A stretch of 64,000 nucleotides of DNA from NCBI GenBank assembly GCA_010015655.1, contig ML976717.1, forward strand, positions 120,963 to 184,962, given 5' to 3'. Below, in pieces: positions 7,958 to 31,263 of this stretch (position 1 is the stretch's first letter; every line of letters starts with the position of its first letter). Under the pieces are notes generated by a model that did no database searches, was not told where the DNA came from, and worked only from the letters and a program-made list of their open reading frames with translations. Position numbers and translations under genes: made by a program. The DNA comes from Bimuria novae-zelandiae CBS 107.79 (taxonomy: Eukaryota > Ascomycota > Dothideomycetes > Pleosporales > Didymosphaeriaceae).

Positions 7958-8385
7958 TATTAAGATCTAATCTTATAGACACTTAGCTAGGCTCCAGGGC
8001 GCCTATGGTCTACAAGCGACCAATAAAGGCGCAGTACTAAGAGGTCACGTAACTGCTCAACGTGCTCAACTCGAGCAAGTCGAGCAAACGCAAGAGCCAA
8101 GATATCTGCTCGTTATACTCGCTTCGAGCATATCGAGCAGGAGAAGTATATATAGGAACGCAAGAAAGAGTCTCTTCTACTTATGTTTAACCTATTTATT
8201 AATCTATCGTTTAGATCTGAGTAAGCAACCTTGTTAATTTAATTATACTATACACACCTTTAATACTAACGCCCCTAGTAACACGCGTAAGCTATTACTA
8301 CCACCCTCTCCTATCCTACTAGTATTCCTGCCCAAGAACCAACCTTAGCCCCTTAGGGATTAGCTATCTCTTTGGGATCTTAACA
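7958..8385 (+). repeat. 3' LTR of the gypsy element, complete (428 bp)
   Basis: Starts TATTAAGATC (the expected TG mutated to TA) and ends GATCTTAACA. It is preceded by a purine-rich tract and followed by the target duplication CGACA. Differences from the 5' LTR are mostly C/T and G/A. Confidence 0.88.
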
Positions 8386-9729
8386 CGACACCTCGCGGGC
8401 CTATATGGCGACTATATTGTCCTCGACGGGCATATGATCGGAGAATCGCACTACCAACAATTTAGTACGCTAAAAGTAGCACACATGGGCGTAGTTCGAG
8501 TATATAGTGTCCTGGCACCTCCACGCGTCCCGTATTTAGATAGCTAGCCTATTACCTATCTAGTTAATCGCTATAACGTCTAGTAGCTTAGTAAGTTAGT
8601 AATTAGTAGTAGTAAGTTATACTTAAAAGTCTTATAGGCTACCTACGCGTAACTAATTTAAAATAAGTACTTAAAATAACTTTAGTAGTAGTACTAAGTT
8701 AAAATTTATATACGTAGTAGCCCCTAGGGGCGCTAATTATAGTAACTTTTTTAAATTAGTTTTTATATTAATAAAACGTAAGTAACTTTCCTTGCGTTTA
8801 AAAGCATTTACTATATAATATTTTACTAAAGTTTGACTTAAATATATAATAATAATAATACTCTTAATAAAGACTTTTTCTTAGGTACTTATTTTTATAA
8901 TAATACTCTTAGCCTATCTTTATACCTTACCTGCTATTAAGCTACTAAGTAGTTACTTATAGTTACTATCCTTTACGCTATTAACTATTTTATTATTATA
9001 GTACGCTCTATAGTAATACTTTACATAAGTTTTATTAATTATCTTAATAAGCTCCTTATCTAATTATTATATAAAAAAACTTAGTAAGACTAATAATAGG
9101 CTATCCTTTAGGTATATTTCTTACTTTTTAATATTTTTATTTTTAAGTTACTCTACCTTAGCTATCTTAGTAGTAATTATATAATTAGCTTTATTTACTA
9201 TCTTTTGTAAAGGTGCCCTAGCCTTTACTTTTTTAAAAGTTTTTTATAAGGTAACTTTATTATACGCGACTTTTTAGCTACTTATATTACTTAAGGTAAA
9301 TTCTTACCCCCTTTAAATACTTAAGTACTTTTACGTTTACGACTTTTAGCTAGTATTATAATAACCCTTAAAAATAATAGCAGAATATTATCTAAGGGAT
9401 AAATTTATATACGGCATCTAATTATATAGAAAAATAGGTGGGGTCAAATAACGCGCAGGAAGCGATTACCTAACAAGCGCCCAGGTCACATGGTGAGCGG
9501 GAATTTACGAAACCACCGATAACGCTGTTCACGCTCTATCTGCTAGTTAGCCCCCTTTAAAGCGAGTATATCCCCAACCGTGCCATCAAGCACGAGTTAC
9601 ATTGCGTCCTCCAAGGTGTCTACAAAAGTACGGCCCTAGCGTACTGGCTAGACCGTAATCCGGGCATTGCCCGTGACATTGAGAAAGGATGGGTGCAGGG
9701 GGGGCCGAGTCCTCTCTGCGAGAAAAATA

Positions 9730-10305
9730 ATGAATAATGTCATTCATCACATTCTGAACGCCGAAACACCAGTGCCCGATAACGAGCTGCCTTATTGGAT
9801 ATGGTATCCCACTATACCGGACGGCTGGACCTTATTCAAGCTCGCTGAGGCGCGCCCGGCCATGCGCGAACAATGTGCGCGTGCGTGCATCGCCGGTAGC
9901 AAGCAACACACGTATATGTTGATCATGGATATGGTTGACGAACATGGAAAAAGCACGTTCCCTTCTCGTGCACTTTGGCATGAAGCTCAGAAATGCGCTG
10001 ATAGCAAATTCTTTGAAGCTGATATCATCAAATGTAGGAAAGAACAGGGAATGAGCACTTCTCCGCCAGAATGTGCTTTGGAACCCTTGTGGTATTCCAA
10101 CATTCCCTGGCGTGAGGTAGATATCAGCCTGGCTCACTGTCCCGACGCATTGAAAGACTCTTCTGAAGATATCATTTTTGAAAATTGGTATAAGCTATTG
10201 TGGCCTACGTACAGCAAGATTGGGGTTAGCCTGGGTCCGCTGCATCTGTATCTGAGCAGTACACCGGAAACGAAGGCGCACGAAGAGCAAAAGGGGGGGG
10301 GCTGA
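9730..10305 (+). CDS. Unrecognised protein, about 191 aa
   Basis: The frame is open from 9667 to TGA 10303-10305. I prefer the ATG at 9730 (MNNVIHHILNAETPVPDN) because the preceding in-frame residues look like non-coding sequence. The product is soluble, without signal peptide or membrane segment, and rich in Trp (WIWYPTIPDGWTLFKLAEA). It is GC-balanced and free of RIP stops although it begins only about 200 bp from a decayed transposon. Just upstream, another frame (9553-9733) reads EYIPNRAIKHELHCVLQGV and could be an earlier exon or a fragment of the same gene. I do not recognise a family; expression is unproven. Confidence 0.5.
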   Translation: MNNVIHHILNAETPVPDNELPYWIWYPTIPDGWTLFKLAEARPAMREQCARACIAGSKQHTYMLIMDMVDEHGKSTFPSRALWHEAQKCADSKFFEADIIKCRKEQGMSTSPPECALEPLWYSNIPWREVDISLAHCPDALKDSSEDIIFENWYKLLWPTYSKIGVSLGPLHLYLSSTPETKAHEEQKGGG

Positions 10306-11147
10306 TGTTTCTATCGGATCAAGATGACCGTCATTATTTTGAGGATTCAAGTTGGGAGACGGGCTGGAGCATAGGTGGCCAGTAGCTCTCACATTCCAGC
10401 CTGGCGTTTATGGTTAGAAACGGCTTTTTATCACCCCGCTCAATCGTACGATCTCCCCATGTCTGAAAACTGAGCACCATTAAACCCATTTTGGCGGTAA
10501 CTATGCTAGGATCACCATGCCCATTTGAGGACCCCTAGTATCCTTCTTGATACAACAGTCTGGACTGAATTGATATGCAGGGTACTCTACTTATTCGTTA
10601 GCGTTGCCGCCCGAAGCCGCTGCTGCCCGCATCTATTCTACCGCGTAGATCTCCGGTTCTTGGTCCCTGTGCTTTGCAAACCTAGCGCTGGAGGCGTCTA
10701 TTTTGTTTGCACGCACATTGCGATCTTCTTTTCAAGCTCAGAGGTACCGTAGCGATACGTTTGAAGACGAGAAAAAAAGCCTGTAAACGCGAGAATTAGT
10801 TTTATTAGTTCATTGATTGATATGTCTGGAACATGGGCCAGAGCCAGCCAAATGCCCTCAATCGACTGCCTATGCCACCTTGGCACATGATACCAATCTG
10901 TCGCAACAACCAAGACGGACAAGTCTAGCGACTGCCGAGGCAGCGCTAAGCGATATTCCCTTTCACGGGACAAATACAGGCGTCCTAGCATACTCCATCG
11001 GGCAATCATGCCTCGATCTTCGCCTTGAGCGATCCTTCGTTAGAGCGAACTTTGAGGGCACATGTACGCTCAACTCTGCCCATCTCAGAGTGATACAACG
11101 CTGTTCCTTCGGTCAATCCTTCAACATACATTCTTTTTGTGAACAAC
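10306..11147. other. No supported gene; upstream region of the chitinase gene
   Basis: Normal base composition. Short frames exist on both strands (for example 10698-11009, -), but none has a recognisable domain or splice structure. The region probably holds the chitinase promoter and spacer. Confidence 0.4.
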
Positions 11148-12815
11148 ATGCGAGCTGCTTCCGGTTCAGCTGCTTTAGCAGCGTTCTTCTCTTGCATCTG
11201 GTCTACGATAGAAAATTTGTTTCAAAGCAAGAGGGTGTGGCTTCTGGAGCGACGTTACACGAAGTTCTGCTTGAGAACTGCCCTGTGGCTTGCAAGTTCG
11301 CCGGGTTTGATACAGAGGCGTGGACTACCTACCATAGTTTCACTGAACTCGCCCTATGCAAAGACACCGTCCTGTTTACGTTCCGCATTCTCTCTTCAGC
11401 ATCCAATCCGCGCATAAAGGCATGCCTTACCACATCCAAAAGACCGCACATGCAGGCTGGTGCTTTCTATAGTCTTCAAAAGAACAACATCACGGATTCC
11501 CCATATCCACTTATGATCACTGAGATGGTGACACCTAAGCACATCATCACGTCAAAATATGGCTCATGTGGTGCGTCAGTTCGAACATCCAACGTGGAAA
11601 TTCGCTCAAGCTGGTCTGGTCGAGGTGACCGTACAACCGAGACGAGGAAGTGCGCCCTGTCGAATCTCCCAATATAGTTCCGCAAGAGCGCCGGCTGTGG
11701 TTCTTCCCTGATGTTCGCCCGCTCCTCGGTAAGCACCGTGTCGGGAGCCTTCGCCGGCAGTGACCTTGCCAAGTCCTCTGTCGCCGACCGCATAGAGGCT
11801 CAGACCGAGACTGTTCTGAATCACAATCCAGCTCGGTATGCTATGCAGTCTTGTCGTTCTACTGAGCAGAATAAGAGCACAGCAACAAGCGATACCCGGC
11901 TAGGAATTTTTGCGGACCTAACCGGCAACATCTCATCGGTTCAGACCTTGTTACGCACCTATATACAAGGCATGGGATCCTGCGTTGATCTGCACGACAT
12001 GAATGAAGGGAGCTTTGCGGCGTCCAGTCGAGTGACGGTCTTGGCGTCGCCTTATGACTACAACGATACACATTCGGAGCCGTCATTGGAACGCCGGGCA
12101 TTGTGTCGCGACGTTGAAGTGATTTTTGGAGATGGTTGCCCGTCCTTGGCCACTAGATGCGGCATCTCAGGTGCCAACTTCGAAAAGTTCAACAGCAAGA
12201 CTACCAATCTATGTTCTACGCTGAAGCCGAAGCAATGGGTTTGTTGTAGCGCTGGCGATCTGCCAGACCATTCGCCCCAACCGAGCGCAGATGGGACTTG
12301 GTTCACGTACACAGTCCAGCCAACTGACTGTTGCTGGGCTATTGCAGACAGTGTCGGCATTACTGTTGCCAATATCGAAGAGTGCAACAAGCAGTCGTGA
12401 GACTTCGCTAGCTGTGCTCCAAACATGCTAAAGAAGGGTCAGAAAATCTGCCTCAGCAAGGGAAATCCGCCCATGCCAGCTCACGACCCAGGGGCCGTCT
12501 GTGGACCGGCTGTAGTTGGGACGAAACGACCATCTAGTTGGAACGACATCGCGAAGTTGAATCCATGTCCGTTGAATGCCTGCTGTGACATTCGGGGACA
12601 ATGTGGCACGACCGATGAGTTCTGCACCGATAATACTGTCGATGGTCACGTTGGCACGGCCCAACCTGACGCCAATGGTTGCATCTCAAATTGTGGTACT
12701 AAGATCGTTAACAACACGATTAAATCAACCGAATTTGCACGCATTGGCTACTTCGAAGGCTGGAACAAAGATCGCGACTGCTTGCACATGGATGCAACTC
12801 AATTGGACTCGTCGT
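11148..12815 (+). pseudogene. Chitinase fragment 1: signal peptide, N-terminal domain, two LysM, CBM18
   Basis: A candidate start MRAASGSAALAAFFSCIWS (11148) looks like a signal peptide, in a frame one step away from the main frame, so a frameshift or small intron lies near 11200-11240. The main frame continues with CPVACKFAG...ALCKDTVLFTF (about 11280-11385), SSVSTVSGAFAGSDLAKSS, and GIFADLTGNISSVQ (about 11905). Then come LysM-like modules (CRDVEVIFGDGCPSLATRCG at about 12106, and YTVQPTDCCWAIADSVGITV at about 12308) and a chitin-binding type-1 Cys cluster (CPLNACCDIRGQCG, about 12567). Stops interrupt it at 11675-11677 (TAG) and 12398-12400 (TGA where Trp is usual). It ends at GCLHMD-type sequence just before the inversion breakpoint, then reads TAA. 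Confidence 0.85.
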
Positions 12816-14413
12816 AATCGTTGGGAAACGCAGTTGCAGACAGAGTTGTCAACAAACAAAACAAACAATATTTGAAGCTGAGTTTTGCTTTGTTTGACGA
12901 TTTTATGGTGTTGTAGTTTGTTTGTTTGATTTTGATAGACTGTAGGGGTGCTTTTGTTTAAATTATTTGTTTAAATTTTAAGAAGCTAAAGACTGTAAAA
13001 GGTAATTTATATAGCAATTACTATAGCGACTCCTTCCACTCCTCTATCCTAAAGCTTTTAATAAGCATTTCTTTACAGTACTTTACTGCTGCTATCGCGC
13101 TTAGAGGCTTAAAACCTGCCCTTATCCATCGCTGCGTACATATAAGAGCAGCTAGTAACTGTGAGCTTATTTTCCGCCTCTGTGGGTCCATTATATTACT
13201 AGTACCTAAGAAGACTCTTTTACAGTCGCTACTAGAGGCAGGAATTAAGAGTAAGTTAATTGCAAGCTATGAAAAATGTAGGTACTTTAGCTTTAACCTA
13301 AGCTAGTACTATATAGCTATAACGCCTATTTTGTGTTGTTAAGCTATCTATAGTGGCTCTTCTAGCCACTAATTATACTTGTCCTTTACTACCTCGGTGC
13401 ACTCGCGATTGCCAGCGTTAAGTATAAAGTTAATAGCGTTGTTAAAGCTACTTATTAAGGGCTTTAGTAGTGTAACTAGTGTTGTAGTTACAGCGTTAGC
13501 AGGCTTATAGGCTGTCTATAGTTGTAGAAACTACGCGTGGCAGTGGTTGTAGACCTTAGGTTTGTGCTACTATAAACGCTTATAGTATATCTTATAGCGT
13601 GGGTAGAGTGCTGTGGCAGTGTAGTATCGGTGATTCTGGAAATACCTGCTCGACCCACTTAAGGCGTATTTCTCATCAGACTGCGCGTATTTTCTGTTCT
13701 GGTCTCCTTTTTTTCGCTTTTCTCTCCACCACACAAGGAACTTTGGATAATAATATACTAAAAGTAGATAAAGGGCTTCTATAGAGTTATAAGTACCCCC
13801 CTTAAATTTTTTAGAAGATTTAAGTTTTTTGCGTTCAAGAAAATACAAGAAAAGGAAGGATTGACGATGACTGGCTGGCTCTGTGGGTCGAGCAGGTATT
13901 TCCGAAACGATAATAAACGGGTGCTTTAAGTAGCTTTTTAAAGTATTTAATTACTTTCTTCTTTGTGGCGCGTAGGTTAATTAGTAGGTGGTCTTTAGGC
14001 GCCTTAGTTAGGGTAAAGTTAACGCCTTTATAAGACTTAAGGCGGGCATCTAGCTTAGTAATTATAAACTCTAATACAGGAATTACCTTGTATAGCGCGC
14101 TATAACAATCGCTTTTACCGTAGCCTTAGAGGCGATTAGTTGCAAACTTAAGCGGCTATAGTATAGTAATATAGTTATTAATAACCGCCTAATCTATAGC
14201 TATAAGCCTTGTTAACCTTATCTATCGCGGTGCTAATAAAAGCTTATTACTGCAAGTTCGCGCAGTAGAGTTAGCTACTTTAGTCTCTATTATATAGTAA
14301 TTAGCATACGAGGTAATAGCTTATTAAAGCTTAACCCCACGCTTAAGTGCACTATAATAGCTATTCTAGCGTATAACTACAGGCTTAACTAGCTCGCGTA
14401 TGCTAATAGAGAT

Positions 14414-15247
14414 CAGCGCTGCCAACGAATCGAACAGGATCCGAACAAGGTGCTTGTTCGTTCGTTCGGCCCACATACAAATGTACGTACGTTCGAGACG
14501 ACTCGAACAGGAGCGTCTTCGAACAGTACAACGAACGTTCGGCCGAACGTTCGTATATATACAACTTTCCTAATTAGGAAGGAGGTTGGTGTTGTGGTCG
14601 AGAAACTGGCTGCCGTCCACCAGCTAGATGTTTTGGCCGGCATCCTTCTTGACGACGTGGTTGAGGAGACGTTTGCCTTGCCAGAGGCGGGTCCATACAA
14701 TAGGAAAACGAGCTCCGGACGCTTTCAGCTCGCCGGGAAACTCATGCGTAGGAGCGACGGACTCCACTTCAGATGGCGAGTCATCCAAGCTCTCGAAGCT
14801 CTCCGCCATCGCCATGACAGCTGCCGTACGCGACCCGGCATGGTGATAGCTGTCAAATGCCAGCCGGGTTGACTGGGTCGACTGGGTCGACTGGGACGAG
14901 TGCGAGCGGGTAACAAATTGATCCATAACAAGATACGCTCACGGCTGACGATGGGAAACAGTGGGAGGCACGTCGACGAGAAAACTCAGAGTTTTCTTCT
15001 CCTACAAGAACGTTGCACAAGGCCAGCAGAACAAGGTAATACTCCACCAATTAGGACAGAATCCCCATACTAAATCGATCAAAAGTAGTCCCGAACAACC
15101 GAACAACCGAACGTTTGGCTCTAATAATGCGTTCGTTCGAAGCTCTGTTCGACCCACCATGCCTGTTCGTTCGTTCGATCCAAAACACCAGAAAACGCCG
15201 TTCGGATCGATTGTTCGGATCGAACGTTCTGTTCGTTGGCAGCGCTG
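14414..15247 (-). mobile_element. Nested non-autonomous hAT, 834 bp, not RIP-decayed
   Basis: Perfect 8 bp target duplication ATAGAGAT (14406-14413 and 15248-15255). The terminal inverted repeat is CAGCGCTGCCAACGAA-like at the left and CAGCGCTGCCAACGAACAG at the right (reverse complement). The GC-rich composition contrasts sharply with the AT-rich host element, and CpG and CpA sites survive. Both subterminal regions are packed with GTTCG/CGAAC units. It keeps a 5' transposase fragment (14624-14926, -) and is an internal-deletion derivative. Confidence 0.92.
14624..14926 (-). pseudogene. N-terminal 100 aa of a hAT transposase kept in the deletion derivative
   Basis: Open frame MDQFVTRSHSSQSTQSTQST... 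through ESFESLDDSPSEVES, PTHEFPGELK and FPIVWTRLWQGKRLLNH. It stops at TAG after GQNI. The stop is followed in frame by LVDGSQFLDHNTN, so one substitution ends the frame. It has no catalytic core; the short QST repeat is encoded by a small tandem repeat (gtcgactgg). It could at most make a truncated protein lacking DDE residues. The assignment as a transposase N-terminus rests on position in a hAT and on the general look of the sequence. Confidence 0.5.
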
Positions 15248-17144
15248 ATAGAGATAGCGCTTTAAAGTATCTCCTTTACAGCCTACTACTAACAGCTTAC
15301 AAAGAGGCTATACTAATTTAGCGTGTTAATATAGTTTATTACATTAAAAAAGACGCCTAATAGTCTATCCTTTTACTACTCCTTTATATAAAACTCTTTT
15401 TTTTTTATATTCTTAGGCTCGTTCTCGTACGCGTCGGCGTCGCGACTAAATATAATTATTTAGCTAATAAAATTAAGTATATGGCAAGCGCAGCGGAGGC
15501 GTTGTTTAATACTATTAAAATTATATATTATAGCGAGGTTATTAATAGTAGTGTTGTTATTAGTGGCGTTATTAAGTATAAAGTACCTAAGTTTATTGCG
15601 ATTAATGCCAAAGTATTCCAGGATAGCAGTAATAGCGTTAGCGATAGCCTCGCCAGAGTGAGCACCTATAACTTGTAGCAGCGCTATAGGCAGGTTAACT
15701 ATCGCGCCTTTATAGTTAACGTAGTGCGCAACTATAGTAAAGAAGCCATGTTTACTACCTTTAGTAGTCTACCTATTAAAGCTTATATACACCTTACTCT
15801 CTGCCTTCGCTAACGCGCGCACCACCTGCGGCTTTATATAGTTATAGAGCTTTATTACAAAGCTCGCTACGCTATTATAAGAGCTCTATAGTACTGCCTC
15901 TGCCTTAGGGTTAGCAAATCTTATTATTTTATAGAAAGCTAGTGTTTTAAACTCGCGGAGAGCTCTATTATTATTAACTAGCTAAAGTATAGCTACCTGT
16001 TAAAAGCCGTGTATATTAAAGTTACCTAGTTTATTAAAGGTCTCTGTAGTAATTTTAAGGCCGCCCTTAGTAGCGAATTATAGTAATATTTAACTAGGTT
16101 TGCGGGTAGGCTTGCGGGCAATAGGGCCGTCTTTGTAGACTTAATAGCTAAATTTATCTTAGGCGAGATGTTATATAGCAGCGCTAGTTAACTTTATTAT
16201 TTAGTATATAGCCCTAGGGAGATTGCGCGTGTAGCAGTACCTACACACAAAGTAAAGCTACTCTGGCTTATATGTGTTCTTCTTCCACACGCGATAGCCA
16301 TGCTTATAGACCTAGCTAGTATTGCTTTTTAGCGTAGTAAGTGGCTTTGCTATACTATTTAATCTGTTAAAGTTATAGCTATTATAGTTACTAGCCTAGC
16401 CCTCCTTAGGAGTAGGAGCCACCTCTATTATTATCTCTATTACTATGTTAGAGCTAGCTATTGGCTGCGTTATAAATGCCTTAGGCCTGTTAAGCATTAA
16501 TTGCGACTCCTAGGCAACGTTATTGCTATTTTATAAGGCTTTGGGAATGGCTAGCTGCATGTTCTGGCGTGGAGATGCTCGCTAGGGTGAAGTATCTAGC
16601 AGCGGCTTTGGCTGGGTTGGTGGCGTGTTTGGTGGCTCTATAAGCAGCTCTACAGGCTATGTAGATAAAGGCTTAGGCGTACTATTACGCTTAGTTAGCT
16701 AACTATTAATGCTTTAGCGCACTTTCTATAAGGGCTTAGGCGCACGATAGGGATATTTAAGTGTAGGTTTAACTACCTTAGCAGACTTATAGCTTTATTT
16801 TAGAGGTATAATAGGCGTAAACGTGTGTGTGTAAAGGCGCGAAAAAGTAAGCTATATAGGCAGGCTAAAGTAAGGAATATAGGTAAGTTAAGCGTTAACG
16901 CGCTGTGTACGCGGGAAGTACGCAATTATTTAGCTAATATTACGTTATATAGTAGGGCTAGGCTATAACGGGTCTAACAGCTATTTTTAAATAAACTTAA
17001 AATATTTAAATAGAGAAGCTTATTATTTTAAATTTATTTATTAATCTAGCGCACAGAAGATTTGTTTGTTTAAATTTGAAAAATTAAACAAAATCAAATC
17101 AAAATTTTGAAGCACATTTGTTTGTTGACAACCCTGGTTGCAGA

Positions 17145-18192
17145 GAACTGGTGGCGGAGACCTTCGATGTTAGGGAGCGCATCTTCCATGACCTTCTTGG
17201 GGTCCGTAATCGTGATCTTGTCAGCTTTGCGAGGGAAGTTCTTGTGCATGTGAGTGACCGGGGTGCACGGTACCGCCATTATGTTCATTGAATCGGTACT
17301 GTTGTCCTGTGTGCTGTTATGGGCTGGAAGAGCTTCGCATCGGGTCCGTTACTACCGCCGCCTATGCCTACCTCACACCTATCGTAAGGGTCGTAATCCT
17401 CCCACTTAATCCAGTCGGGTTGGATGCCGAGCTCAGAGACTAGAGCCTTCTCGAACTCCGCTTTGTCATCCAGCTTGTACTCGATAGTAAAGCTGATGTC
17501 CGGATCGTAGAAGCCCCCGGTGCCACCCATAACGTTGCTGGGGACTGGACATGCGCCATCGTAGCGGGCCGAGCCATCTCCTTTCCGATAATACTTGCAG
17601 CTGAAATACTTGTTACCGAATACCTTCTTCGTCGCCTCGTCTTTGTCGAAGTTGTCCATCTAGTTATCAAGCTGCGGGTTGACCAGATCGTTGATGTAGT
17701 CCGAGTAATAGCCGAACTTGCCATCATAGTCTTCCTTGACCTCATCATACTTCTTGAGAGTGTTGTTGAGCAGTTGATCCAGAACGGTGATTATGTACTG
17801 CGTTAAGCAATAAGATGGTATATTATCTTTGTCATCTACCAGGTCATCCAGATCGTCATATGTGGAGAGTGTTGAGGGAGGCGCTCCCCGGCATACGGAA
17901 GGAGCACGCTAGCCATATATAGGCGACATCCCGCCTACATAATAGTACAACTCTTACACTCAACTTCATGTTGACGATACTTTTCAACAGAGAGGCAGTC
18001 TCCTAGCGTCCCATCGATGATTTCTCCTTCGAAATCATCGCCTTCGACAGGACCCCGGTATTCTTGTAGGTCGACTGCCCAGTCGGTTATACCGCCAAAG
18101 TTCAAAGTACGGTATTTCGCTTTGCGATTGTTCTTTGTTGTGCTACTCATATAGGCTACCTAGTTGCCGTACCACGTCATCATGTCGGAGTC
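17145..18192 (-). pseudogene. Chitinase fragment 3: end of the inverted GH18 core
   Basis: On the - strand, directly after the copia target site, the frame reads MMTWYGN, a TAG stop (18160-18162, where Trp is expected), VAYMSSTTKN and LNFGGITDWAVDLQ, the last strand of the GH18 barrel with the W-x-x-D-L pattern. Further on are GGTGGFYDPDISFTIEY and DWIKWEDYDP (about 17380-17520), and KKVMEDALPNIEGLRHQFSA (about 17150-17215), which ends at the hAT insertion. Several frame changes occur between 17660 and 17935; some may be introns. The 25 bases 12816-12840 beyond the hAT belong to the same strand and reach the inversion breakpoint. Confidence 0.8.
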
Positions 18193-18395
18193 TGTCGCGG
18201 TGAGCAGAGCGCTGAGCGGACAGTACGCAGTGGAAAAGATTGCAGGATTGAACTGAGGTTGTTCTATCTAGAAGCTACAGAAGGTATAGGTGCGCAGGCA
18301 CAAACAACGCTAGTCCTAGACAGAAAGAAGGTAAGTCGCAACCATGTCAAGGTAGGAGCAACTATCTTGTAGAGTAAGAGCCATAAACCATGACA
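18193..18395 (-). repeat. LTR of the copia element (3' LTR in element orientation)
   Basis: 203 bp, nearly identical to 23456-23658. It is followed by CACACCCCAGCTAGC and preceded by target duplication GAGTC. Confidence 0.92.
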
Positions 18396-18499
18396 CACAC
18401 CCCAGCTAGCGTGGACGCCCAGGCAGGGAGTTAATAACAGCTAATTAGTATTAGTGTATATAGATACTATCAAGATTATTGCTATTAGTTTAACGCAGG

Positions 18500-21400
18500 C
18501 CCTTTAGATACTTAGTAATATTAATAAGGCTAATTTAGCAAATAAAGTCTACAAACTTCTGCTTAAGTAGAATCTTTGTAAGCTTATCAGCAGGCATATA
18601 GTCGGTGGGGACCTATTTAACGTTAATACGAGAGGCTTCGACTTCCTGTTAAATCTAGAGCTAGTAGATATTAACATGTTTAATTTTTATATAAAGCTTG
18701 TCTTGCTGTTTAGTAACAATACCAACGGTCTGTTAATTATTACACTAGATAGTAGGTATACAGTTAAGAGTAAAGTTAATACTAGAGAAGAATTGCATCT
18801 ATTCTTCTATCTACAAGCTAGTAAGTAATAGAGCTAGTAATTTAGATTCTATAGTTAATTTCGTAACTATGCGTTATACTATTGACTTCTAGTTAATTAT
18901 TAGTCTACCAAACTTAAAAGCATAGCCTTAAGAGCTTCGGCGAGTCTTAGGCTCGTTAGCGTATAAGGCGTTAGAGGATCTAAAGAAGAGAGGATCGCGA
19001 TATATTAGATTATTAGATAGATACTCAGCCATATCCTGCGCGCCAGTAAAGGCTTCAAGTACGAGAGCCTTCGTGCTGAGTAGGTAGCGCCAGGTCTTCC
19101 AGATTTTCGAGATGTGTGACTGTCCTAGGTTAGTAAGGTGACAAGCAAAGACGACGTGCGTTTAGGCGACGTCAGGTCTACCCCAGACAGCAATATATAC
19201 GAGAGAGCTAACTAGTTACTAATAGAGCTTTATTTACGATAAATTAGGCTCCTTAGTAGACTATAGCAGCTAGTTCTCCGCTAGTAGAATATTTAGAGCC
19301 TTACCTATAGCTTTAATACTAAATTAAGCGTATACCTTATTAATAAACGCGTCTTAGACTAGCCACGTCTTGTGCAGGGCTTAATCGCGTATAATATAGA
19401 TTCTAAGAAACTAGGTAAGGTCTCCTATAGCTTTAATATTGTATAAGACCACCAGATCCTTCTTAAAAGACCTATAGTAATAGGCATTAGACTAATAATA
19501 TGCCATAATAATGTCGTTAATATAGACAAATAGGATAAGCTAGCGGCTCGTGTATAAGCAAGGAAAGCCTTTAACTAGCTTTAGACCTAGCTTAACAAGT
19601 TATTAACGTAGTTTGTTATACTATAGGATTAGTAACTCCTTTAGGCCGTACAGGGCGCGGAGTACCAGCATGATCTCGCCTACAGTATGGCGGAACGCCT
19701 TAGGTGTTTCAGCGTATAGTTTTTAATTAATCTTAGCGTTTAGGAAGGCAGTAGGGACATCGTACTACTTTAGCTCTAGACTAAAGTAATTAGCAATTGT
19801 AATAAGAGCGCGAAAGTTACGAATTATAAGTATAGTAGCGTATATATTATTAAGTAGAGCTTAAAGATCTCCTTAAATAACAAGTTAAGTTTTAAACTGT
19901 AAGAGGTATCCTTCTTCGTCGATCTTATATGCGAATATCTATATTAACGGTAGCACCTTAGCGTCTACAGTGGCCTTTATTTTTATAGTCTTCTTAAAGA
20001 CTCCTTTAGCGCGTAGAGCTTGCCACTTAACCTCTATAGCGCGTTAAAATTAATTACTAAATATATGTATTTTAAGCTACTTTATTGCCTTTAGTAAAGG
20101 TGGCAGTTGTAATTAATAGATTCTTAGTATCTTATCTATAGTAGGTATAGAGCAAATCTCGGTCGAAAATACATAGAGATAGTTAATAAAAGGTATAGCT
20201 CCTAGCGCTATTACGTATATATAAATTACAAAGTTATTTAGATCTTCCTACTTTTAATTGCGTTTACTAGTAATAATTAAGCTTATGTTAGTTAGGTCTA
20301 GGTTAACGTTTCGTGGAGCTCTCTCGCCGCGTTGGCGATAGCCCTCAGGTACTTTATTACTCTTAGGAGTGTAATTGCTTATGGCAGTAGACATTATAGG
20401 TCTTAGAGTAGGCAGCTATTGCTGTTACTATGTCGATTCGAATACGTCGTCTATCTATTTACCCCCCACCTGGGAGCCTGCAGCTCTCGAAGCTGAGGTC
20501 GTAGGTATCTCTACTAGGTGGCGACGTTAACAAGTAGTTAATAGATCTTTAATACTAATATTATTATGTTAATATTCTTCTAAATATTTAAGTAGTTTAA
20601 TTACCTCTTTAAGCACTAACCCTAATACATACCTATTTATTCTATTAAAGAAAAGTGTAGGTTCGAATACAACGTCGCGGGTGACAATAATAGTGTCTTT
20701 TATAGGTAGCTAGATACAGAAGATATTAGTGCCTTAGTAGCTAATAAGGTGGCTAATTAGAGTACGCGATTTAAGCTTATTAGTAGCTTTTAGATTATAG
20801 TTATAGACGTAGGCGCGACAGCCAATAGGCCTTATATAAGTAACGAGTGGCTTTTGTCCCTATACTACCTTGTATGGTGTCTTCTAGCCTAGTGCTTCGG
20901 TAGGCGTGCGATTAAGGATGTATGCGGCGGTGCGATATAGCTTATGTAATAGACTCTTTGGCAGATTGGCGTGTATGCGTATAGCGCGAGCTCGCTACGT
21001 TAGTACTCCGCCAGCGCGTTTAATAAGTCTATTTAGTTCTTTTATGCTAGGTGGTGCTGGCTTATATAGCATGCCTAGTTCTTCTATTATATTAATAAGA
21101 TTATTTCTAAATTCTTTCTTGTTATTGTATTAAATAGTAACTACGTTAGCGTTATACACGCGCTGGATCTTGCAGATTAAAGATATAAACTAACGTGTAA
21201 GAGTTGACTTATCCTTTCGCTTAACTGTGGCGATTTCATGCCACTTTAAGTACTCGTCTATAGAGTGTAGGGCGTACTTGCTGCTATTAATACATTCCTC
21301 TCCTATAGGGACAATATAAATAATATCTATTATAATTTAATAGAATAATTATTATGCATGGCTCTTAGCCAGGCGTCTTAAGATAATATAAGTTATTTAA

Positions 21401-23300
21401 GCTTTAATATATATTTAATAGAGATAGTCTATATGTTCTCCTGTTAGTTAAACGCCAGTGACATTTGCCTCTAGTTATTTAACTACCTTATAGCCTAAGT
21501 AGCCCTAGATCTAATGTGTAACATGTTAGTTAATAACGTTAGTTAGCTTTAGTGCGTACGACGGGCGATATAATACTCTAAATATACTTAGTGTTAAGTA
21601 GAGTAATAATAGAGGCGGTCGATGTGATGGCTCTGCGTTAATAAGCTAGTGACCTCTATTATACTTAAGTTATGCGATAACGTAGGACGGCTAATGTATA
21701 TATAGGACATCTTAGCTAGAGTCGAAGTAGATAGACTCTATACGACAGCGAGCGAGTCCTAATACGCTTATAAGAAAGCCTTCGACGTACGCGACGTGCG
21801 TCAGCTCTAGCGTTTATAGTCTATGTAGTATACAAGCGACGAGTTTTATCGTGCCTTAAGCCGTGATAAGGATGTGGCTGTTACTAGTATGGAGGTAGCG
21901 ACGCTTTGGATTGTCGTTTATCCTCTTCTAGCCGTGCCATGACTCTGTATTGATAACGTGGGTGTTTGACCCTGGACCAACAATCCATCGATTGAGAAGC
22001 TCAGTCTTGTCAGTGTCATCTCCAACCATCACTGTAAGCTCTCCCTCAGGCTCAGTATTGGTATCCAGCGTAATCATGTTTGAAACGTCATTTGATCGAG
22101 ATTCGAGTGATTCGAGTTCGAGAGAATCGACTTGATCGATACTAATATGTGATAGGCCAGCAACTGCCACAAAGGTGTTACTATCTTCAGCAGGAGGATT
22201 ACTATCATTAATTCGTAGTGATCTAGTATTCTGTGGTTGTTAGGCTGCCTATTTAGTTAGAGTAGTCTTAATATGCTTATTAATCTTAAAGTCTTTTTAT
22301 ACTTCTTTAACCTTCTACATAGCCTTAGTAGTAGGCTAATAGTCCTTCGGACGTCGTAGGTGTCGTGTGTTAAGGATAAAGTAGTTAGTATACTAGTACT
22401 TCTTCTCGTAGACATAGTTCTTAGATGGCTTGTCTCGGTCGCAACTGCTACCTCGGCCGTTATTATGTTTAGAATCAACTTGTTTGGCGATGCCCAGCTC
22501 AGCAGCGGATACTGCCAGGCCTATTAAGTATGGTTTTGTACGGCGTAGATAGGTGGTCATCTCGGCGACGTAAGTCTCTAGAGATAAGATCTTAGTAGTA
22601 GTGCCTCGCGCTTTATGCTTAAAGATCTCGCGCAGGCAGAACATAGCGTACTCTTAATTAAGTGCCTTATAGGTAATAAGGAAGTCCTCCTATAGTTAAT
22701 TACTATTAGTCTTAGGCAGGCTAACAGCCTTGCCCTAAGCTATAATATATACCTAGTTTAATAACTATTACTTAATCTTCTTTGTAGCTCGTGGCATAGT
22801 CTTAAGGGCATTATATTTATTAGCTAGCTCACGATAGCGTGTCGCGTCTATAGGATAAAAGAACTTCTTAAGGGTAACTAATTAGTTATACAGGGTATTA
22901 TAATCCTTAATTAGGTGTATATAGCGTGTAGTAATTATCTTACTAATATTTATATTTAGGTTAGCTAGTGCCTTTATTTAAGTGCGGTACTTAGTGCGAT
23001 GGCGTTCTTATTAATTATATTTTTATTAATAGGATTCTTAATTATTAGTAGATAGGTGAGAGAGCCTAGTAGCTTTAAGTTTATAATTAGTAAGTTAAGG
23101 CTTATAAGGCTCTTATAGCTTAGGGAGATTCTCCTTTACTACGTTAGGGTTAATATACTGCTAAAGACCGTGGCGGTTAGCAACGTCTCGGCGAATAAAT
23201 AACTAGGTAAACTAGTTATCTAGTGTGTTTAGGACGATAGTAACTCGCGTTATAGCGGGGTCGGACTTAGTAGCTATTGCAGAGGCTATAGTTGACTATA
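18500..23300 (-). pseudogene. copia gag-pol remnant
   Basis: Read on the - strand. A gag-like stretch at 22393-22644 (MFCLREIFKHKARGTTTKIL). A protease-like block at 21928-22170 with NRWIVGPGSNTHVINTE, where the usual DSGASxH motif is altered to GPGSNTH. A reverse transcriptase active-site region LFVYINDIIMA (about 19500-19535), where the canonical YVDD is YIND. The order gag, protease, then RT toward lower coordinates gives the orientation. Many TAG/TAA stops. Integrase and RNase H should lie at about 20300-21900 and 18500-19100 but I did not resolve individual motifs there. Confidence 0.75.
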
Positions 23301-23455
23301 TTAATAAATCTAGGCAGAGATCCTAGTATGTGCGTTATAAGAACGCGGTAATAGGTGCGTTGTAAAGAACGCGGTATAGTAACGTGCAACTCGTGTGTTA
23401 AGTGACGTTATAGCAGTAGGTGAGAACAATCCAAGGTGCAAGCCAGGCTTATAAC

Positions 23456-23658
23456 TGTCGCGGTGAGCAGAGCGCTGAGCGGATAGTACGCAGTGGAAAA
23501 GATTGCAGGATTGAACTAAGGTTGTTCTATCTAGAAGCTACAGAAGGTATAGGTGCGCAGGCATAAACAACGCTAGTCCTAGACAGAAAGAAGGTAAGTC
23601 GCAACCATGTCAAGGTAGGAGCAACTATCTTGTAGAGTAAGAGCCATAAACCGTGACA
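23456..23658 (-). repeat. LTR of the copia element (5' LTR in element orientation)
   Basis: 203 bp. Compared with the other LTR it shows CAGTACGC to TAGTACGC, AACTGAGG to AACTAAGG and GGCACAAAC to GGCATAAAC; the first and third are CpA to TpA changes and the second is TpG to TpA. Confidence 0.92.
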
Positions 23659-24712
23659 GAGTCACTGTCTTTTTCATACCACGATGTGACCACCTCGTCT
23701 CCATCGAAGCTCTAAGCGTCCAGGAGCATGTTCAACTCGGCATCAGCAATATATCCTGACGTAGCTGTGCAATCACCAGGGTCCGCGTCACTTTGAATGT
23801 TGCTGCCGGTGAACTTGCAATTGACGCCAGTGCAGGAGCGATCTGCCACCTTGAAACTACGGCCATAGCTCGACACGCCTATCATGATTTTGCTGGCCTG
23901 TACTCCAGCTTTAGTGACCATACTCAATGCCGTCATCGTCTCAGTGAGATTGACGTGACTACGCAGGCAATTGCCGGTAGGGCAACCAGGATTAGCATCT
24001 TTTGTCACGGTTTGGAGTCTCCCTTTCCCCACTTGCAGTGGCGCCTCACCTGTGTTGAGATGCGACTACCCATCCTACACTAGCGCTGTTTACAGCCACT
24101 CATGTATACCTACTGTTCGTAGCTTCACCCAATACAACAACAAGTACAATTCTCAATTTCTTCCTTATGCGTATGGATCACTAGCTCTCACATCTTTGCT
24201 ACCATAGTCCCACTGGCCGTGGAGGTCGTAAGTTATGTGGATGAAGTAATCCACCGTGGCAGACATCTTGTCCACAGGAAAATTGCGAAGGTACCAATAA
24301 CTGGCCGGTAACGCAATCGAAAGAGTATTGCTTGCAGGAAGTTTCGCTTTAACCGACTGCAAAAAACGAAGATAGTAGACACCATCTTCTGGGCTGCCAA
24401 GGACTGAGCCGCTGATGTCAGTCGCCCCAGGGTATTCCCAGTCAAAGTCGAGGTCATCCAATTTGTTATCCTTGAGAAATTGGACGACGTTGCTGGCGAA
24501 AAGCTCTCGATTTGCCGGTGAAACAGCCTGCCGAAATATGGGCGAGTGTCGTGATTGGTGCTGAAGGACCAACCACCGAAATTCAAAATCTTTTTGACCC
24601 CCGATGTAGTTTTCATGAACTTCACAAACTGTTCGTTGACTTTTGGCGCCATTGCCACTTTGAAGTCGGAATAAATGTTGGCAAAAGCGAAATGTATGTG
24701 CGAATAGCGGGA
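23659..24712 (-). pseudogene. Chitinase fragment 2: inverted first part of the GH18 core, with the catalytic motif
   Basis: On the - strand from the inversion breakpoint: YSHIHFAFANI (strand 1), KKILNFGGWSFST (the SxGG-like block), then the GH18 signature DDLDFDWEYPG (24428-24458) containing the D-x-x-D-x-D-x-E catalytic residues, DYFIHITYDLHGQWDYGSK, NCLRSHVNLTETMTALSMV and IMIGVSSYGRSF. A 1 bp frameshift lies near 24545. A probable intron of about 125 bp separates DYGSK from the next exon near 24180-24060. A TAG at 23710-23712 replaces an expected Trp. The fragment ends at the copia target site. Confidence 0.85.
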
Positions 24713-25165
24713 CGCCGCCATTGCGCTCGTGACTCCCATTCAGATGCTCGCCCAACTGTCCACCGCACTGATGAGGTCAAGGAGATTGGCGAAGAGATCG
24801 CTGCCGAGAAGAAGAAAGAGACGATTTTACTCATCGTCAGCCTGGTATTGATGATCGTGCCTTTCGTCGCAGTAGTAGGCTTTGAGATCGCAGGTTTCAC
24901 TGCGCTGGCACGCTTTCATTTCATCGTCGGCGAGGTCGCTAATGGCGCGAATGCGGTTGCGGAGGTCATTGACAACCCAGAAAGTGCTCCTTTTGCGGCG
25001 ATGGGTATCCTTGCAGGAGCGGCTGCAGGAAAGGCTGGAAGGCTTGAGGACACGATGACGGATGCGGCGAAGGCGAGAAGGAAGTTGGGAGACGCAAGCG
25101 TCCTGGGAAAGAAATTCAAGGAAATCGACGATAAGGTCCAGTCAGTGATGTCAAAGTGTGACTAG
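24713..25165 (+). pseudogene. Chitinase fragment 4: C-terminal helical/membrane region
   Basis: Back on the + strand. The first codons read ALVTPIQMLAQ in one frame, then the frame shifts by an indel near 24755 into EVKEIGEEIAAEKKKE, a hydrophobic pair of segments (ILLIVSLVLMIVPFVAVVGF; ALARFHFIVGEVANGANAV), NPESAPFAAMGILAGAAAGK and an Arg/Lys-rich end, with TAG at 25163-25165. This helix-rich tail is characteristic of the C-terminus of this chitinase subgroup, so it belongs to the same gene as the N-terminal fragment on the same strand. Confidence 0.8.
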
Positions 25166-25810
25166 TCAAGTGGATGCGGTCAGAACCCGGGCGGATGCCG
25201 CCACCCACTTCTTAAAGATCGCGACGTTCTTGTACAATATTACGGTCTCACATTATGCGCCTAATATAATTTTACCATACTCGCAATCTTCACTTTGAAC
25301 TCTTCGTGGTCAGCTATGTTGCTCCTGGGGAACCTACGGTCGGGTTTCCTGGGTCTGTATAGAGAATGCACGATTGAAATTCGGGTATTCGAGGCTTCCA
25401 TTGCCGACCAAATATCGCACATGTTTAATCTGTTCACATCTCTTAGCTGGTAGACATACGCGAAGGACCACGCTTCGGAACTTCGGCCGCTCTGAATACT
25501 GGCACTTGCGATGCTACGGAATCTGTGAGCTTAAAGACTACATTGCGACGCCTTTATCGAGTGTCCCCAAAAATCTCCACAGTCATCTGACTGCGGTTTC
25601 TACAGAATTCCTAGAAGATGGGGCACAAATGCTTGAAAATCGTGGTGAGGTTCTGTTTGCTCCGCCACTGTGTTCCGTACTATCTCATCTGCCCGCATCT
25701 TTGTTTGAATTACAAACGACAACTGATCACTCGTATATATTCTCGCGGATGCATTGTTATAGTTGTTCAGAGCAAAGACTTCATCGCAAGGGATCAAATT
25801 CCAAAGCATT
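25166..25810. other. Spacer after the chitinase locus; no supported gene
   Basis: Balanced composition. An open frame at 25374-25826 (+, 150 aa) and one on the other strand (25600-25809) have no recognisable domain. One could be a relic gene, but I cannot choose between them. Confidence 0.35.
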
Positions 25811-26347
25811 ATGGTTGACGAAATAGAGGCAGAACCCGCCAGAACTGCGAGCTCGTTAAAAGACAGTACCTACTCTGATAGTACTATCCGTCCCGAAGCA
25901 CAAGCACCGTCTCAAGAATCCCGTGGTTCTAGACCTGGTCCGGAATTCTATGTCCCTAAGATAGTGTTCAGTCGGCCATCACGGAGAGAGATTCTACGAC
26001 GATGATATACTTCCTAGCGGTGACAATGGATCACCGTCGAAGGATTCAAGTTACCCCATCCTTTCCCCAACGGTGGAAAGTAGGGAAACTCATGCAGGCA
26101 AAGAAGCTTCCACGAAAGCCTCGCCTTTTTTTTTTTTTTTTTACCACAGCAAATGCAGGACGCTATCAGTAAGGTCGTCAGCGCCGCCGTTGCGGAGAAA
26201 ATGAAGACCATTCGAGAAGAGATTAGCTCTATAGTGCGAAATAATTGGGAAGACTTGTTCCACAATGAGAATCAGAGGGCTACCCGTCTTCGACACATTT
26301 TTGAAGTCGCTATAGATAAGCAATTCCTGTTTTACGAGGACCGTTGA
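25811..26347 (+). CDS. Possible two-exon gene for a small coiled-coil protein, uncertain
   Basis: A first open stretch from ATG 25811 reads MVDEIEAEPARTASSLKD... to PSRREILRR (stop 26003-26005). A second, 26153-26347, reads MQDAISKVVSAAVAEKMKTI with a Lys/Glu-rich amphipathic pattern up to FLFYEDR and TGA; the frame then continues as IEREREQAPQTP. Between them lies a run of 17 T (26126-26142) ending TTACCACAG, which looks like a polypyrimidine tract and 3' splice site just before the second stretch. No clear 5' splice site was found. It may be a real small gene or a decayed one. Confidence 0.3.
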
Positions 26348-26652
26348 ATAGAAAGAGAGAGGGAACAAGCTCCACAGACTCCAAGCAATACAGAGGCCTC
26401 CGGCGGTACGACACTTGCACCTAGAGAAGGAGAGCCATCGGGGTCTTTCAGAAAGGCAATAGTGTGTTATCGGCATATTCGAAGATATTCAAGTTGCTCT
26501 AACACTCGTTGTAGGCCCACACAAAATCGGTCTTGACGCTCTTTGGTGGGAAAAATGATTCGTGAGCAACATTATTATTTACATTATGTAGATTGTTGAA
26601 CTCTTGAAATGGGTTTTCACATGGCCTTAATAAGACTAAGCCCGTGGTAATC
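26348..26652. other. Spacer; possible continuation of the upstream frame
   Basis: The frame after the TGA at 26345-26347 stays open to about 26533 (EREQAPQTPSNTEASGG), suggesting a broken gene. From 26540 on I see nothing apart from the likely 3' UTR of the minus-strand gene that ends at 26653. Confidence 0.3.
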
Positions 26653-27468
26653 TCATTTTGACGCGTCGATGATTCCTACTGGCGCCCCAATCCATTGGCT
26701 GTCTCGTGTTTCTAGATCAGCAGCGATAAAGTCCGCGCACTGTTCAAGTGTGGTGTCGTAGCGATTGGCGTTCATTGCAGCGACAATTGGCTTGCCAACC
26801 AGGGGTATGTGCTTTAGCCAGGAGTCTTGCCATAACGGTGGAGTCCCCGCACCTGCAGTCAGTCTTGCGTGCGAGCTCTTTGTAGGAACGCTAAAGTCCG
26901 AAGATTCGGGGGTCATCGTGCTTGGACAGATCATAGACCAGTCAACCGTGTTCGGTGAAAGTGATCGGAGTAGTTGAATGTTTTGGCGATGAGCGAGGAA
27001 TATCGGGACGCTGTTGTGTCTTAGCTTTGTCGGTTCTTAAAGCTCGTGTGAATCTACTTACTAGTCCGATATCATCGACATGGCTCCTGGAAACTGCAAC
27101 ACTCCCAACCCACCCAGGAACCAAACCCTCAGAGGCGACTTTTGCTCTGCTCCTGCTTCTTGTACACCTTCCAAGACGGCGCGGAATATCTCCGGGAGGG
27201 TGCTCTTGCCCCATGGAGCCACCGCTGCGACTCCAGCAGAGTTGACCACGGCTTCGCATTGGAAATCCAGTATGGCTCTCTTGATAGCAGCCGAGTCCGT
27301 GGCATCCCCTTCTACAACCGAGAGCTGGCGGTAAACGGGCTCTGGAAGGAGCAACTCTAGCTTTTTGGCGGACCGAACGTAGGCTACCACATTGTGGCCG
27401 TGTGTGAGGAGCGCCGGAACAAGCCTTAAACCCACATTTCCGGTTGCTCCAACTATAAGGACCTTCAT
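26653..27468 (-). CDS. NmrA-like / atypical SDR NAD(P)-binding protein, 254 aa
   Basis: Two exons on the - strand, 27062-27468 and 26653-27010, joined across a 51 bp intron with donor GTAAGT and acceptor CAACAG; the join keeps the frame and removes the stop that follows MSMISD. The N-terminus MKVLIVGATGNVGLRLVPAL is a Rossmann fold with the GxxGxxG dinucleotide-binding loop, followed by VVAYVRSAKKL and VVEGDATD. This is the layout of NmrA-like/extended SDR proteins, which act as oxidoreductases or redox-sensing regulators in the cytosol. The substrate is unknown. The gene is intact, with no RIP damage, although a transposon block starts about 200 bp upstream of its start. Confidence 0.82.
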
Positions 27469-27949
27469 GATCGTGGTCAGTATTGCGATGTTCAGTAAAG
27501 TGAATTGAAGTTTTATTTTGCGAATGACTAGTACGAGGGATAGTTCAAATGTGAAGCGATGTTATAGGAGCTTTCTCTAGGTTCTAATACGTGTGCATAT
27601 ACGTGTGGTGTAGTCGGTTCGGTGTATCTTTCAGAAGTATACCCAAAATCGGGAGGTTAATCAGCCCGCATTTATCGGTGCTTTGCAAAAGACCGTCCCG
27701 ACCCACTCTGGGCGCTTGTTAGGTAATCGCTTCCCCACTTTCATTGTCGCTCATACAAAATTATATAAGAGACGATGTAATTAAGGAAATTACACTAACT
27801 TTTCTTATTATTAGAGTTCTGTACGGTATACTAATTAATCCTAAGAGGCCTATAAGCTATAAACTATAGGCGTTAATAGTGCAGGCAATTATTAAGCGCA
27901 TAAAGGTAGGGTAAAAAAACCACGAGATTTACAGATCTCTCGGAGTTAA

Positions 27950-28880
27950 CACTAAAACTATGTAGAAATACTAACTTAATCTAGAAGCGTTTAGTTAGCC
28001 ATACCCTCTGCGATATGTTAAAATTAGTTAGCCACCATCGCTGCGTTAATGCTATAAAGACGCCCTGTTGGAGTTCCTACGGGGCAAACCTACGGCATAT
28101 CTCGATGAGATGCAGGCCTTCTTGTGCGACGACTTCGACTTACAGGTATCGGCAGCCACTATTACGAGATTTCTCGCTAGCATAAGGTAGAGTCAAAAAG
28201 CTGCGTTAAAAGCTGCTAGGGAGCGCTATAAAGGCCTTCGTCGGGTGTTTCGTGCACGCTACTAATAAATATATAAACTAGAGCAGGTTATTTGCCTCGA
28301 CAAGAGCGCCTGTAATAAGAGAACCAGCGATAGAAAGTATACCTAGTCACCTATAAACACGCCGACAGACGTATAATACTTAGCGCGACGCACGGAGAGG
28401 TGGAGCTTGCTCCTTATTATAGATATAGACAGTTACGTTAATCATGTCCTATACTAAGGAGCAATTACCGCAGATTTAATAAAAGAGTTTCTAGCGAATA
28501 AAGTACTCCCTTATTATAATTCTTAGCTAGGTAAATAATTAGTAATAGTCCTTAATAATGCCTCTATCTATAGGTTAGAAAAGATTATCTTATTATGCGC
28601 GGAGGCAGGCGTTGTACTTAAATATTTATTACTATACTTACTAGATTTTAACCTAATTAAGCAGACCTTTAAGGCGTTAAAAAACTAGATAAAAAAGCAC
28701 TACGAACGCGCTTATACGTACGAGGATTTTACTTACTTCTTAGAGGAGGTAGTATAGAACGTATGCTATAATTAGGCGGAATCCGCGCAAGGATTCTTTA
28801 AGTTCTATAGGTAGGTACTATAGGTGCTAGATAAGGCACAACACTAAAGGATTAGTATCTATAATAATATCGCGAAGGTC
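27950..28880 (+). pseudogene. DDE_3 (Tc1/IS630-like) transposase of copy B
   Basis: Recognisable blocks: LEFLRGKPTAYLDEMQAFLC and SAATITRFLASIR (HTH region, 28065-28195), LLLIIDIDSYVNHVLY-GAITADLIKEFL (about 28410-28495), LVIVLNNASIYRLEKI (about 28540-28590), CAEAGVVLKYLLLYLLDFNLIKQTFKALKN-IKKHY (about 28598-28700). This is the fungal Tc1/mariner DDE_3 pattern. Stops are TAG/TAA at Gln/Trp positions. It is less decayed than the gene of copy A. Confidence 0.82.
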
Positions 28881-30916: not shown

Positions 30917-31263
30917 CTAACTGCCTTTATACACCTTGTAGAAAGTTAATTTTCCTGTATTACATCGTCTCTCATATAATTTTAGGTGTAGGGCGATGAA
31001 AGCGGGGAAGCGATTACCTAAAAAGCGTGCAGCCACTCAGAAACTCGCCCCAAGTGGGTCGGGACGGTCTTTTGCAAAGCGTTATAAGCGAGTGCGCTAT
31101 CGGTGGTTTCGTAAAATCCCGCTACACATGTGATCTGGGCGCTTGTTAGGTAATCGCTTCCTGCGCGTCATTTAACCCCACCTATTTTTCCGTACAATTA
31201 GATGCCATACATAAATTTATTCCCTTAAACGATACCCTGCTATTATCCTTAAGGGTTATTATA

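Follow-up and report, generated by a model that had tools for sequence, protein, structure and literature searches.

Group C chitinases are described by a CBM18 module together with likeness to the zymocin alpha/beta subunits, and they are hypothesised to act between fungi (PMC8715425). In the Dothideomycetes, mesosynteny has been attributed to intrachromosomal inversions by a mechanism called unknown (Hane 2011, PMC3219968; Ohm 2012, PMC3516569), and simple repeats are over-represented within 500 bp of inversion breakpoints (Ohm 2012, PMC3516569). Human/chimpanzee pure microinversions span 17–33 nt and are flanked by inverted repeats of 3–75 nt; an exon-located primate microinversion leaves the coding sequence untouched (PMC8755829). 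For all four papers these statements are taken from the accessible portions. Here we describe a chitinase gene of Bimuria novae-zelandiae CBS 107.79, a fungus of the Dothideomycetes, in a stretch of 64,000 nucleotides (assembly GCA_010015655.1, contig ML976717.1, forward-strand positions 120,963 to 184,962) that we call the window and from whose first letter all positions are counted. The locus is probably a dead killer-toxin-like chitinase gene that underwent a single, clean inversion of ~1.8 kb in its interior.

A 230-residue query from the left part of the gene found a full-length homologue of 1316 amino acids in Paraphaeosphaeria minitans (P0001; 74% identity over 99% of the query). Searched against the window by tblastn, P0001 matched in three blocks: residues 28–552 fell on the + strand (11231–12808), residues 551–1143 on the - strand (several pieces, the first at 24721 and the last reaching 17148), and on the + strand again came residues 1164–1315 (24711–25162). 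A second relative, P0002, gave a matching picture. We call the three pieces A (+ strand), B (- strand, 12814–24710) and C (+ strand); their limits are listed in Table 1. Pfam placed LysM (30.8 bits) and Chitin_bind_1 (CBM18, 29.2 bits) in A, N-terminal to GH18, and GH18 itself (PF00704, 70.9 bits) at 24168–24776 on the - strand, in B. As judged from these predicted domains and protein matches, the three pieces are one killer-toxin-like (group C) chitinase gene. An initial annotation, made from the letters alone, had seen a LysM/CBM18 part and a C-terminal helical part on the + strand with the GH18 core on the - strand between them, and had taken the whole for a single gene with a flipped middle. 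The tblastn and Pfam results agree with that layout, and the single gene is supported by the piecewise tblastn matches and by the order of the pieces in homologues.

That order was scored in 120 listed homologues out of 632 found, by tblastn against the window at E 0.01. Both A and B were matched by 119 of the 120, the remaining one having no match to A, and A preceded B in every case (119/119); in ten of these proteins the two matches had an overlap exceeding 10 residues, the largest being 51. C was matched as well by 49 homologues, always after B (49/49) and with B–C gaps of 19–282 residues, and 70 homologues had no C match at this threshold. A naturally split arrangement was found in none of the 119 homologues matching A and B, in line with the expectation of the initial annotation that relatives would carry the gene colinear.

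We also searched the genome itself (77.4 Mb in 191 contigs). With P0001 as query, six other loci of the family yielded at least two pieces each (C5, C27, C35, C40, C60 and C136). Their pieces lay on a single strand and in order; C40 alone had an extra weak piece on the opposite strand ~5 kb off, which we take as a separate gene. Among the multi-piece family loci of this genome, the strand switches inside a gene only at the window locus. The best-scoring pieces of the six other loci were 45–53% identical to P0001, and at the window locus identity was 60–80% in seven of eight pieces and 50% in the eighth. DNA searches of the genome with C and with the end of B returned, apart from hAT transposon ends, nothing but the queries themselves, and no close second copy of either. 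Because the homologues compared and the six other family loci are colinear, it is B that is inverted at the window locus. As the sequence stands in the assembly, this inversion is real, derived and clean.

Both breakpoints could be read almost to the base, since homologous proteins show the former partner of each edge. With the pieces read separately, the last residues of A are MDATQLDSS and the first of B are SRYSHIHFAF; P0002 has MDLDTYSHIHFAF at this point. The number of residues equals that of P0002, and one serine is common to the A and B readings. The end of B, visible to the left of the hAT transposon, reads SATAFPNDYD, and C begins DAAIALVTPIQML, where P0002 has DDADAAIALSTPVQML. At each edge the number of codons is that of the homologues, with no net gain or loss, the left edge being read from 19 bp. 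Since the left edge of B is visible only in these 19 bp (12814–12832), between the breakpoint and the hAT duplication, its assignment is less secure than that of the right edge. The initial annotation had both edges in frame with their flanks, and the junction reading agrees; its right edge (24712/24713) falls inside the ambiguous stretch, and its left edge (12815/12816) is 2–6 bp off. The inverted span measures 11,901 bp and, by coordinate arithmetic, shrinks to 1806 bp when four insertions and one duplication each are subtracted, against the ~2.1 kb proposed initially.

The four bases CGTC/GACG are the only ones common to the two breakpoints, and neither side extends by another base. When 200,000 pairs of breakpoints were placed at random in the pieces of this gene, 1.7% of them had at least four bases in common. 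Exact inverted matches between the junction flanks reached 6 bases at most, below the mean of 7.1 in 100 random stretches. None of the 9 inverted pairs of at least 20 bp in 8000–28000 joins both breakpoints, pair I2 being the hAT ends, and no transposon end lies at either breakpoint, the nearest feature of this kind being the hAT duplication 19 bp off. The initial annotation had likewise reported neither a transposon end nor a long inverted repeat there. A 27-bp perfect inverted repeat (9458–9484 and 27708–27734) was rejected as a cause, as it lies ~3 kb beyond both breakpoints and is a genome-wide motif, with 181 places at no more than 3 mismatches. These data suggest, but do not show, a joining guided by homology at the four common bases. 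The gene would have suffered two breaks whose ends were rejoined in reverse (end joining), or else a template switch, at very short homology; we infer one of these two as the repair route.

The breakpoints do not respect the domain. In P0001, GH18 covers residues 531–880 (Pfam), and the inverted piece corresponds approximately to residues 553–1163. The first ~22 GH18 residues, presumably the first strand of the barrel, remain in A, and ~280 residues past GH18 are inverted along with it; thus the breakpoints do not isolate a domain. They had initially been described as isolating GH18, with the right end just past the barrel, which the Pfam limits in both P0001 and P0002 contradict.

The gene is broken in many other ways. 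Read against P0002 it has two stops in A and another three in B; three of these five are at tryptophan positions of P0002, changes that we take to be such as repeat-induced point mutation (RIP) would give. At least four frame changes were counted, one of which, placed by eye, separates the start at 11148 from the frame that is read from 11219 on. Strand switches, stops, frame changes and insertions leave no open colinear reading frame. With four insertions, extra stretches nested in one of them, stops and frame changes, the gene is thus a pseudogene.

The four insertions all lie in B, each with a clean target-site duplication, and none ends at a breakpoint. The initial annotation had counted two transposons in the inverted part; the total rises to four insertions. 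Since every insertion is wholly inside B, the inversion and the insertions cannot be ordered in time. The hAT copy of the window carries two extra stretches (~13627–13910 and ~14421–15243) that are lacking in the seven other copies fetched, which measure 3162–3165 bp and have perfect 8-bp duplications in 6 of 7. The seventh, L039 (C10:671008-674172), is without matching 8-bp flanks, possibly the scar of a rearrangement. The long terminal repeat (LTR) retrotransposon, presumably of the copia type from its RVT_2 domain, is flanked by the duplication GAGTC (18188–18192 and 23659–23663), and a comparison of its two LTRs over 204 positions showed 4 differences, all of them transitions. TpA/ApT was 1.7–1.8 (RIP-like) in the hAT and LTR elements and 0.3–0.9 in the gene pieces.

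The two short insertions belong to repeat families. For the 120-bp element, whose span (17870–17989) is extra sequence that proved to be a repeat, 39 other genome places were scored (104 candidates), many of them partial, at 84–99% identity. The 190-bp element replaced an intron once proposed at ~24006–24173, which was dropped for this repeat with its 5-bp duplication. It has 39 other scored places at 99–100% identity (40 scored of 114 candidates), and all pairs among the 40 are more than 70 kb apart. Perfect 5-bp duplications were seen in 8/8 inspected places, the window's included, without a second copy within 1.5 kb. The family may consist of very young solo LTRs or be a tiny self-standing mobile unit.

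Table 1. Pieces of the chitinase gene, breakpoints and insertions (positions in the window).
Feature	Position	Strand	Basis or remark
Piece A, N-terminal chitinase part: start codon, signal-like N-terminus, LysM, CBM18, first GH18 residues	11148..12813	+	tblastn P0001/P0002; Pfam; start placed by eye; 2 internal stops, 1 early frame change
Left breakpoint, where A meets the end of B; the four shared bases CGTC	12810..12813		junction reading
19 bp assigned to end of B, in frame with C	12814..12832	-	SATAFPNDY with target-site duplication; less certain
Target-site duplication, 8 bp GTTGCAGA, left copy	12833..12840		perfect match to right copy
hAT transposon, 20-bp terminal repeats CAGRGTTGTCAACAAACAAA	12841..17136		
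Target-site duplication, 8 bp GTTGCAGA, right copy	17137..17144		
Piece B, C-terminal portion, homologue residues ~839-1143, split by 120-bp element	17145..18187	-	tblastn
120-bp TG..CA element	17870..17989	-	duplication CTCTC at 17865-17869 and 17990-17994
LTR retrotransposon	18193..23658	-	RVT_2 E 1e-14; LTRs 18193-18395 and 23456-23658
Piece B, middle of GH18, homologue residues ~726-841	23664..24002	-	tblastn
190-bp TG..CA element	24003..24192	-	duplication AAAGA at 23998-24002 and 24193-24197
Piece B, N-terminal GH18 portion, homologue residues ~553-730, stretch DLDFDWE	24193..24710	-	frame change near 24527-24545
Right breakpoint, where the start of B meets C; the four shared bases GACG	24711..24714		junction reading
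Piece C, helical C-terminal part, including the stop codon	24711..25165	+	tblastn; frame change near 24757

Several points weigh against a single clean inversion. The evidence is one assembly, in which a stretch may be mis-oriented. The 19 bp at 12814–12832 are too short to be identified with certainty as the B terminus, and between FSAT and C, exactly at the hAT site, P0002 is longer by 10 codons; this difference may reflect a 30-bp in-frame deletion or natural length variation, or the 19 bp may be filler. Imperfect homology over the 16 outer bases (P 0.09) is not clearly above chance, and because homology past the four bases is of this kind, the repair route is weakly supported. The hAT duplication lies 19 bp from the left breakpoint, and an insertion end so near is expected by chance in roughly 8%. 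Finally, four of four insertions are in B and none in A or C, a pattern with a probability of ~4% by chance if insertions fall uniformly over the three pieces, in a test conceived after the pattern had been seen.

An assembler that had placed the middle stretch in the wrong orientation could have been led astray by the repeats inside B (hAT, the LTR element and the two short families), which could break an assembly. The joins are, however, gap-free and lie outside the repeats, in coding sequence that has no near-identical counterpart elsewhere in the genome. Their edges match the homologues at the codon level, an error would need to mimic a codon-precise inversion, and the exact inverted match of the junction flanks is shorter than usual. 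We consider an artefact of this kind quite improbable. The nearness of the hAT duplication to the left breakpoint, the 10 codons apparently gone at the hAT site and the one copy in seven without matching flanks, as if rearranged, could all be explained if hAT had caused the inversion, by aberrant transposition or through a break left by its movement. Yet both hAT ends and the perfect 8-bp duplication are intact and lie within B, whereas alternative transposition puts breakpoints at transposon ends, and chance alone would give such nearness in roughly 8% of cases. An origin in hAT is rather unlikely in our view.

With at least six other family loci in the genome, two opposite gene copies might have recombined, or pieces of two genes might have been fused. 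The other loci are more distant, however (45–53% identical to P0001, versus 60–80% for seven of eight pieces here); DNA searches found no close second copy, and the edges meet without overlap or loss. We regard such an origin as highly improbable. Breakpoints that are clean and in frame would also be expected of a programmed or selected invertible segment, an on/off switch for the chitinase. We give this idea virtually no credence: the edges are joined by no inverted repeat of at least 20 bp and have no exact one longer than 6 bases near them, the reading frame is broken by stops, frame changes and four insertions, and the 119 homologues matching A and B are all colinear. A single inversion within a chitinase gene is left as the probable account. 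It may have killed the gene, or it may have struck a gene already dead. We take the split arrangement to be without function, a fossil and no working genetic device.

In the region of the gene, remnants of genes with a G+C content near 50% are interspersed with repeats at about 38–40%, and G+C exceeds 50% throughout the window from ~44 kb on. The 27-bp motif occurs at 9458–9484, 27708–27734 and 31135–31161, near the end of an element terminating ..ACCGATA, and is common to two kinds of element end. A HET-domain (heterokaryon incompatibility) reading frame (39608–40825) lies downstream of the repeat-rich region. A BRCT/Rad9-type protein of 1502 residues (53391–57896) is 100% identical along its entire length to P0121 of Bimuria novae-zelandiae CBS 107.79, the next matches being at 57–63%. 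An Rfam scan of the window gave no match at gathering scores.

Beyond the resolution of its breakpoints, the locus is another broken chitinase gene in a transposon-rich region. It does show a usable method, which is to search for places where the match to one protein changes strand, and one case settles nothing. Literature searches for mesosynteny with microhomology found nothing; microinversion with fungi gave, among the matches listed, nothing that looked relevant by title, and intragenic inversion returned mostly human disease genes, with no fungus by title among the matches listed. For inversions inside coding sequences or pseudogenes of fungi one paper was listed, on Cryptococcus (PMC3990503). 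It is conceivable, though we hold it doubtful, that Dothideomycetes often undergo small precise inversions, even below the size of a gene, that are joined at a few homologous bases, that dead genes of this sort preserve the breakpoints to the base, and that a census of them would reveal the repair route behind mesosynteny.

How does the locus compare with the systems described so far? Like most of the relatives listed, it combines GH18, CBM18 and LysM, the last of which goes unmentioned in the accessible portion of PMC8715425. What sets it apart from group C chitinases is that it is a pseudogene, inverted in its middle part, that has taken up four insertions. With the inversions invoked for mesosynteny it shares its position within a chromosome of a fungus of the Dothideomycetes, but it is far smaller than those described in the accessible portions of PMC3219968 and PMC3516569, and both its breakpoints lie inside one gene. 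A tandem-repeat scan found no simple repeats of di- or trinucleotide type within 500 bp of the breakpoints, whereas Ohm 2012 reports simple repeats as over-represented there. Its only matches in that range were repeats of about two copies, each unit 9–13 bases long, two of them inside hAT and one at 25012–25037 (score 38); another two-copy row (17134–17160) straddles the other hAT end. The primate microinversions, as far as the accessible portion of PMC8755829 describes them, resemble it in being clean and in having short inverted homology at their edges (4 nt in our case), but our inversion is ~1.8 kb long and inside a gene, versus 17–33 nt. The inversion is ordinary in kind, and its value is that of an example with base-level breakpoints, of the sort invoked for mesosynteny.

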